Positions 12,188 through 17,825 of a stretch of DNA of 64,000 bases are shown here, one piece after another; within the stretch, counting starts at the first letter, position 1; each line of letters begins with the position of its first letter. This DNA comes from Desulfitibacter sp. BRH_c19 (GTDB lineage: Bacteria > Bacillota > DSM-16504 > Desulfitibacterales > Desulfitibacteraceae). The DNA is taken from the NCBI GenBank assembly GCA_001515945.1, contig LOER01000026.1:1-64000 (forward strand), given 5' to 3'. The notes beneath the pieces were generated by a model. It was given only the letters and a program-made list of their open reading frames with translations. It was not told the origin of the DNA and made no database searches. Made by a program: the position numbers and the translations under genes.

Positions 12188-13621
12188 ATGTTAAAGCATG
12201 ATAAAACTACATTTAAGGTTTTATACTATGTAAATCAGTTTTTTGGTCAGATTGGGGGAGAAGATAAAGCAGGCATCGAACCAATGTTTAAAAAGGAAAG
12301 TATTGGGCCTGCCCTAGGTTTTGCCAGCTTAATAAAAAGTATCAGACCATTAGGCATTCCCCATGACGATACACCGATAGCTGCTGCTAGAGATGCCCGA
12401 ACAATCGACATAATGAAATCCGCAAATGAAGGGGGAGAAATCGTTGGTACCATTATTTGTGGAGATAACTATTTTAATGAAAACAAAGAGAAATCACTAG
12501 AATACATTTTAAATATAGTAAAAGAGGTTAAACCCGATATCTTGGTGGCTGGTCCAGCCTTTAATGCTGGCAGGTATGGTATGGCATGTGGTGAAATTGC
12601 CAAAGCAGTAGTTGATCAACTGAAGATACCTGTTGTAACTGGAATGTATATAGAAAACCCGGGAGTAGAAACATGTAAGGACAAAGCAATAGTAGTTAGC
12701 GTTGGAAATTCTGCAGCGGGAATGCGTAAGGCGTTACCAGCCATGGCAAATATTGTAAAGAAGATTGCTTTCGGAGTTGAATTAGGTCCTCCACAGGAAG
12801 AAGGTTATATTCCCCAGGGAATTAGAAAAACAGTAATTGTTGATAAAAGAGGCTCAAAAAGGGCAGTAGATATGCTGCTTAAAAGACTTAAGGGTGAAGA
12901 ATTTGAAACAGAGCTTCCAATGCCTGTCTTTGATATGGTAGATCCAGCTCCACCGATTAAAGATTTAAAGAAGGCAAATATTGCATTAGTTACTAGTGGT
13001 GGAATCGTGCCAAAGGGTAATCCTGATAGACTACAGTCTGCTAGTGCTCAGAAATGGTGCAAATATGATGTAAGTAGAAAGGATTCCCTTGATCAAAGTG
13101 CATTGCTAGGAACAGTAGATGAGTTTTGCACAGTACATGGTGGTTATGACCCTGTATATGCTAACAAGTTCCCTGATAGGATTGCTCCACTAGACATTTT
13201 AAAGAAGATGGTTAAACAAAAATATATTGGTCAGGTCTACGAATGGTTCTATACAACTACGGGAACAGGAACATCAGTATCAAACTCAGTTAAGTTTGGA
13301 CAGGAAATAGGTGCCGAATTGAAAAAGGCAGGTGTAGATGGAGTTATCCTTACATCCACCTGAGGCACATGTACTCGTTGCGGTGCAACGATGGTTAAAG
13401 AAATTGAAAGGTATGGCATTCCAATTGTTCACATGGCTACGATAACTACAATTTCACAGTCAGTTGGTGCAAACAGGATCGTACCTACTGTGGCAATTCC
13501 ATATCCAGTAGGCAACCCGGCTTTGACACATGAAGAGGAAAATGAAATGAGATATAATCTTGTTAAGAAAGCTGTAGACTCACTAGTGTCGAAGGTTACA
13601 GGACCAACATTGTTTGAATAG
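12188..13621 (+). CDS. grdH: Glycine/sarcosine/betaine reductase component B, selenoprotein gamma subunit
   Basis: 477 residues when the TGA at 13361-13363 is read as selenocysteine (Sec392). The flanking sequence 'VILTST-U-GTCTRCGATMVKE' is the UxxCxxC site of GrdB/GrdF/GrdH, and the family continues without a break to 13621, ending 'GPTLFE'. The subunit attacks the substrate Schiff base and passes a carboxymethyl-selenoether to component A (GrdA). GrdA, GrdC, GrdD and thioredoxin genes are not in the window and must be elsewhere. ATG start behind GAAAGGAGG. Substrate type uncertain, so the symbol is provisional. Automatic callers would split it into two genes at the TGA. Confidence 0.92.
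13375..13391 (+). promoter_or_regulatory. Bacterial SECIS hairpin for Sec392
   Basis: TCGTTGC-GGT-GCAACGA is a perfect 7-bp stem with a three-base loop. It begins 11 bases after the UGA and spans 17 bases, the geometry known for the minimal E. coli fdhF SECIS, and has G and U in the loop. Confidence 0.85.
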
Positions 13622-17117: not shown

Positions 17118-17145
17118 CTCTAACCATTTAGGTTAGGGTGTTTTT
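17118..17145 (+). terminator. Terminator after the small membrane protein
   Basis: CTAACC-ATTTA-GGTTAG stem extended by two pairs, followed by a T run. Confidence 0.75.
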
Positions 17146-17153
17146 CTTATTAT

Positions 17154-17250
17154 TTACCAAAGCAGAGGGGCATGTGCTTATGGAAGATATGCCTAGAACA
17201 GGCAAAACCCTTTTGGCAAAGTCTTTGGCAAAAAGTCTAGGTGAGCTGAG
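17154..17250 (+). pseudogene. MoxR-type AAA ATPase remnant
   Basis: About 30 codons match the Walker A region of MoxR ATPases ('EGHVLMEDMPRTGKTLLAKS'; the family has P-G-x-G-K-T). The frame then runs into the antisense end of the DUF2284 gene. There is no start, sensor or Walker B region, so this is a degraded scrap of a lost gene. Confidence 0.7.
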
Positions 17251-17267
17251 TGTGTGTCATCGTTTTT

Positions 17268-17804
17268 TTATTCAACTAGTATTAGTGCAAAGAAGTTCCA
17301 CTTTCCATAGGTTTCTTTTTTGGTATCTATTTTAAAACCATTAGTTCTTACAGTTTGAAAGACATCTATCCCACAGGCTTCCATCATGGGTCTGATTTGT
17401 GGGTGTTCTGATGAAGTGGGCTCAGACTGAGCACCTCCACCGGATTGTCAGGTAGACCCTTCACTTAAAGGAAGTGCAATCAGGGCAAAAGCCTTATAAT
17501 AGCCCATCTGACATGCTTCGTTTTCAATGGCTAATGCAATTTTGGTAAGTGCTGTACCATTTGAACTATTAATAAGCAATGCCTGGCTGTATTCCTTTAG
17601 CATTTTTTCCATCTCTTTAGTGGTGGGGGCGTGAGGGGGATGGTATGCATCCTTTCCATAAAAACGACATCCATAACGACATTTCCATTGAACCCATTCT
17701 GCAACAGCTACTGTATCAGTTTTTATTATAGCTGCTTTTTCAGCACCCATTTCGATTGCTCTATCCACTAGATCATTAAATTTATTTCCTGTACGTGACG
17801 TCAA
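17268..17804 (-). CDS. DUF2284 protein interrupted by in-frame TGA (candidate selenoprotein or pseudogene)
   Basis: Read from TTG 17804 (placed by AGAGAGGTGA) to the TGA at 17450-17448, the frame gives 118 residues resembling the N-terminal part of DUF2284 metal-binding proteins: 'QWKCRYGC', 'HPPHAPTTKEMEKMLKEY'. After the TGA the same frame continues 60 codons to a stop at 17268 and still matches the family C-terminus, including 'RPMMEACGIDVFQTVRTNGF'. Read through, the product is 178 residues, a normal length. The TGA lies 18 residues before 'RP', where I recall the first cysteine of the family's Cys cluster. The other cluster cysteines are absent, which argues for decay or a changed role. 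A small hairpin follows the TGA. Confidence 0.6.
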
Positions 17805-17825
17805 AAATAATTCACCTCTCTGCAT

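Follow-up and report, generated by a model that had tools for sequence, protein, structure and literature searches.

A DUF2284 gene with an in-frame TGA in Desulfitibacter sp. BRH_c19 very probably encodes a functional, stand-alone selenoprotein, as comparative sequence analysis indicates. The gene lies in the first 64,000 nucleotides of contig LOER01000026.1 (hereafter the window), and we regard it as a working selenoprotein gene because distant relatives share the TGA, the RNA hairpin behind it and the protein encoded downstream.

The gene and its product

Three features on the minus strand define the reading frame:

17268..17804, minus strand: stand-alone DUF2284 selenoprotein coding sequence, 178 amino acids with predicted Sec119, TTG start and TAA stop, kept in relatives
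17450-17448, minus strand: in-frame TGA, the predicted selenocysteine (Sec) codon, in a conserved TGAC context
17805..17825, minus strand: ribosome-binding region (AGAGGTGA), assigned from sequence

The start codon is the TTG at 17804, which has this Shine-Dalgarno sequence immediately upstream, and the TAA stop codon is at 17270-17268; initiation at an upstream ATG (17825-17823) is less likely. When the TGA is read as Sec, the 178-residue product matches Pfam DUF2284 (PF10050), a family of predicted metal-binding proteins, with 114.8 bits, passing the curated cut-off of 25 bits. The match spans positions 2-161 of the 161-position profile, bearing out the proposal of an earlier note on this DNA that read-through restores a full-length protein. 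Apart from the TGA, the frame contains no stop codon and no frameshift. The gene stands alone, divergent from a gene for a PucR-type regulator, and genes for a nitroreductase and a flavin reductase are among its neighbors in the window, on the opposite strand. A search for synteny with the PucR neighbor within the genus found only paralogues, with identities of about 31% or less, and a comparison with plasmids gave no match. Just beyond the DUF2284 stop codon, a short plus-strand ORF (17138-17335) contains a MoxR-like P-loop stretch, for which no Pfam or NCBIfam match was found.

Conservation of the TGA and of the codons that follow it

A scan of contigs identified five relatives, in Desulfosporosinus lacus, D. 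acididurans, Desulfosporosinus sp. BG and two Bacillota metagenome-assembled genomes, and all five have TGA at the identical codon. Three further homologues, all within one other family of the phylum, came from searching whole genomes with the MbdU model. Counting the window, the codon is TGA in eight of eight intact sequences. The ninth, from Desulfosporosinus sp. BG (L015), is damaged by a frameshift ahead of the TGA and has a foreign C-terminus; it keeps both the TGA and the hairpin nonetheless. The eight homologues from other assemblies are 53-59% identical to the window protein, and at least four other genomes contain the free-standing, single-Sec form. In relatives of the same genus or order the search returned no orthologue, only Cys-type or fused DUF2284.

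The earlier note had proposed asking whether homologues carry Sec or Cys at this site, and whether synonymous and nonsynonymous changes differ downstream of it. The codon is TGA in all the relatives identified above and encodes Cys in Cys-type DUF2284. Comparison of the codons 3′ of the TGA between the window and each relative gave a dN of 0.17-0.32 and a dS of 1.1-1.9, revealing purifying selection; because dS is near saturation at this distance, these values show long-term constraint rather than that of the last few generations. Constraint after the TGA is at least equal to that before it.

The Sec site and its clade

In every Cys-type DUF2284 of the alignment (A4), the Sec column corresponds to the third Cys of a CxxCxxC motif, and not, as the earlier note had it, to the first cysteine of the cluster. 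The remaining cysteines of the CxxCxxC...C cluster are gone in every Sec member, the third position alone being kept, as Sec; the four-cysteine cluster is typical of DUF2284 but plays no part in the Pfam cut-off. The absence of the other cysteines had been counted as a sign of decay; it is instead a property of the whole Sec clade, which answers that doubt. Cys42, Cys46 and Cys144 are retained in the clade, and His55 replaces the Cys of the CPP motif. Relative to Cys-type DUF2284 (PF10050), the window protein belongs to the family over its full length and shares Cys42, Cys46 and, for the most part, the EACGIDV motif, but has Sec for the third cluster Cys, lacks the others and carries His for the Cys of CPP.

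The Sec forms constitute a single clade with support of 100/100, within which the window sequence groups with three stand-alone relatives at only 83/73. A profile search against solved structures gave no credible match for the window protein. An AlphaFold model built from five sequences was of low quality (pLDDT 65, with low values near Sec), and its comparison with the PDB gave no match at E below 0.001.

A covarying hairpin behind the TGA

17410..17441, minus strand: bSECIS-like hairpin, identified by covariation, covariance model R1 and folding

The hairpin GCTCA-GTC-TGAGC noticed earlier was located as claimed, at about 17432-17420, where it forms the apical stem of a longer structure whose lower stem has a bulged U in the fold. 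As expected of a bSECIS element, it stands at the proper distance after the UGA and its loop opens with G. The stem begins 12-15 nt 3′ of the TGA in every sequence, and examples from the relatives include GTGACTCA-GGC-TGAGTCAC, GTGGCTCA-GGT-TGAGCCAC and GAGACTCA-GGA-TGAGTCTC, all within bases that double as protein-coding sequence.

Since folding of single sequences gave weak z-scores (an unexceptional -1.2 for the window hairpin), we relied on covariation. Across nine sequences, 94.4% of cells are paired, and covariation scores 0.229, compared with 0.091 for shuffled alignments, none of 500 of which scored as high; controls with slid partners reached at most 0.101. The signal is small because two-sided changes occur at only two pairs. 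A covariance model (R1) built from seven relatives, with the window excluded, recovered the window element (17450-17413) as its best match in the 64 kb, with an E value of 4.6e-5, the next best having 0.16. The search for a bSECIS element that the earlier note had suggested thus returned a hairpin that covaries in relatives and can be found from them. The relatives share a stem of eight pairs, in which the window hairpin has two mismatches. At Rfam gathering thresholds the DUF2284 hairpin was not recognized, and only the element of a grdB-type gene in the window was found:

13364..13401, plus strand: SECIS_4 element of a GrdB-family selenoprotein gene, Rfam 62.8 bits

The gene that contains this element (12188-13621) matches TIGR01918 with 601 bits. 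In the genome, a tRNA-Sec gene (76 bits) lies beside selB (386 bits), which on inspection is adjoined by a SelA-like gene. The organism's use of Sec, earlier taken as evident, is thus upheld both within the window and in the genome.

Relation to catalogued selenoprotein families

Two curated models contain the Sec-type DUF2284 domain. Against MbdU (NF045648) the window protein scores 270.9 bits over positions 290-468 only, below the cut-off of 600, and against ArsM_DUF2284_UU (NF041536) it scores 256.5 bits over positions 276-459 only, below the cut-off of 575; Cys-type DUF2284 proteins score 92-132 bits on these models, compared with 271 and 256 for the window protein. MbdU carries this Sec-DUF2284 domain as its C-terminal half, with Sec in the identical position, but its N-terminal half, DUF5714 with a CU motif, is missing from the window protein. 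Likewise, it matches the DUF2284 half of the arsenite methyltransferase/DUF2284 domain selenoprotein (NF041536) far better than Cys-type proteins do, but has no fused ArsM domain. D. acididurans carries an entire MbdU (780 bits) with both UGAs, the second of which is at the site of the window gene, and the DUF5714 half of MbdU was not found in the window genome.

MbdU is described as a metal-binding double selenoprotein and credited to Haft and Tolstoy 2025, and both MbdU and the ArsM-DUF2284 fusions are included in a 2026 inventory of 119 selenoprotein families (PMC13188914). In the accessible text of that inventory, stand-alone DUF2284 is absent, and DUF2284 is named only as an ArsM fusion (PMC13188914). 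The free-standing, single-Sec form therefore appears to be uncatalogued as far as this text goes, and the original description of MbdU may mention stand-alone forms. Of the earlier suggestion of a new selenoprotein, then, the selenoprotein part is strongly supported, but the Sec-bearing domain was already known inside fusions, and only its free-standing form is apparently new.

DUF5714, the N-terminal half of MbdU, likewise appears to exist on its own, with one in-frame TGA, at four loci (L032-L035, in genomes G131, G060, G014 and G098), so that both halves of MbdU may exist as separate selenoproteins. In Desulfosporosinus sp. BG (L015:2800-5494), DUF5714 and DUF2284 are encoded by two genes, and a MetE/UROD-like gene lies between the two.

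Association with methyltransferases and arsenic-type regulators

In three genomes, a gene for an MduS-type methyltransferase (292-298 bits) lies directly downstream of the stand-alone gene on the same strand; because these genomes belong to one family, the pairing counts as one lineage and not as three independent cases. MduS (NF045649) is a separate protein and a candidate partner, its domain type being the one that adjoins stand-alone Sec-DUF2284 here; unlike the full model, however, the copies found are short, covering about positions 5-216 of 338, and fall below the cut-off of 380. The window genome encodes an MduS-type methyltransferase on contig C36 (284 bits), unlinked to the window gene. 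DUF2284 is also found fused to methyltransferases, namely to ArsM in NF041536 and, by inspection, to another methyltransferase-like domain in a Cys-type paralogue of the same genome. On contig C8 (L001:355-3272), the gene for this Cys-type fusion is followed by a B12-binding radical-SAM-like gene, a layout shared by the two other genomes of the genus.

ArsR-type regulator genes lie ahead of MbdU in D. lacus and SKS3, and the Desulfosporosinus sp. BG locus contains them as well. At another locus (L057:6558-7410), a truncated ArsM fragment ending at TAG and then an ArsR-like frame lie just upstream of the Sec-DUF2284 gene, in what looks like a decayed arsenic locus. Several ArsR/SmtB-type genes near MbdU (L013:3797-4093, L012:3797-4093 and L015 from 2300) themselves share the position of an in-frame TGA, in the contexts NYY-U-ITNPVIWKII and NFY-U-IADEVIWKII; the protein after the TGA is conserved, and the hairpin GTGATCT-GGA-AGATCAT follows about 12 nt 3′ of the TGA. 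These genes are candidates for a selenocysteine metalloregulator; the accessible text of the 2026 selenoprotein review contains no mention of ArsR or SmtB (PMC13188914).

Taken together, the methyltransferase pairing, the DUF2284-methyltransferase fusions and the ArsR-type neighbors suggest a role in methylation of a metal or metalloid. Very probably, SelB brings Sec-tRNA to the UGA, aided by the hairpin just downstream, and translation continues past it to yield the 178-residue protein, in which Sec119 occupies the place of the third Cys in the CxxCxxC...C of ordinary DUF2284. In the proposed role, a selenol/thiol site would bind a soft metal or metalloid, pass it on or reduce it. The protein would partner a SAM-dependent methyltransferase, here perhaps the MduS-type enzyme on contig C36. 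We give this role of binding or redox partner, in which both substrate and partner are deduced, somewhat less than an even chance.

Alternative explanations

The earlier note had also entertained a fresh pseudogene, with the TGA as a nonsense mutation and the part behind it decaying. The damaged relative in Desulfosporosinus sp. BG would be in keeping with this, as would the MoxR-like scrap adjoining the gene, which had been read as local decay; that scrap, however, is on the opposite strand and beyond the gene, which it does not overlap, and it matches no family. All relatives have the same TGA with a covarying hairpin, the window gene has no further lesion, and dN is well below dS after the TGA; since the TGA is conserved, a fresh mutation is refuted, and we consider a pseudogene very improbable. 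UGA makes a weak stop signal when the next base is C, which would suit reading of the codon by other means, as near-cognate read-through or a reassigned codon. Such decoding is more improbable still, given a genome with tRNA-Sec, SelB and a classic GrdB/SECIS_4 gene, the conserved hairpin, the position of the UGA in a cysteine column, and the homologous domain within families classed as double selenoproteins.

Two further readings accept the Sec codon. The gene could be what is left of a former MbdU that lost its DUF5714 half and kept its Sec-DUF2284 half by chance or with a reduced role. The match is confined to the C-terminal part of MbdU, the genome has no DUF5714 half, close branches contain MbdU fusions, and the tree is compatible with either order, fusion first or stand-alone first. 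Nevertheless, Sec-DUF2284 genes that stand alone, each with a start codon and ribosome-binding site of its own, are found in more than one genus, and three of these genes form a conserved pair with a methyltransferase gene. In addition, the downstream half is constrained, and we consider a remnant unlikely. It is a real possibility, in contrast, that the selenoprotein is a redox enzyme unrelated to methyltransferases. According to the 2026 review, oxidoreductases make up most Sec proteins (PMC13188914), and the nitroreductase and flavin reductase genes of the window, on the other strand, fit such a function. Set against this, DUF2284 is repeatedly fused to or paired with SAM methyltransferases, and no redox fold was recognized either by the profile search of solved structures or with the low-confidence AlphaFold model.

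Implications

As far as the accessible text of the inventory goes, the Sec-DUF2284 domain was previously catalogued only within larger double selenoproteins. In the free-standing form, the Sec site that MbdU and ArsM-DUF2284 contain is isolated in 178 residues, which suggests that the large double selenoproteins are modular. Genes of this type are likely to be labelled truncated or decayed wherever annotation stops at the TGA, and the curated models that include Sec-DUF2284 require a fusion partner that the window gene lacks. The methyltransferase pairing that relatives show suggests a function of the domain that can be tested. It is possible, and we hold it only tentatively, that stand-alone Sec-DUF2284 is a separate selenoprotein family, its cysteine cluster rebuilt as Cys-Cys-His-Sec-Cys, and that it works on a metalloid in trans with an MduS-type methyltransferase. 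If this is true, then MbdU and ArsM-DUF2284 would be fusions of originally separate selenoproteins.
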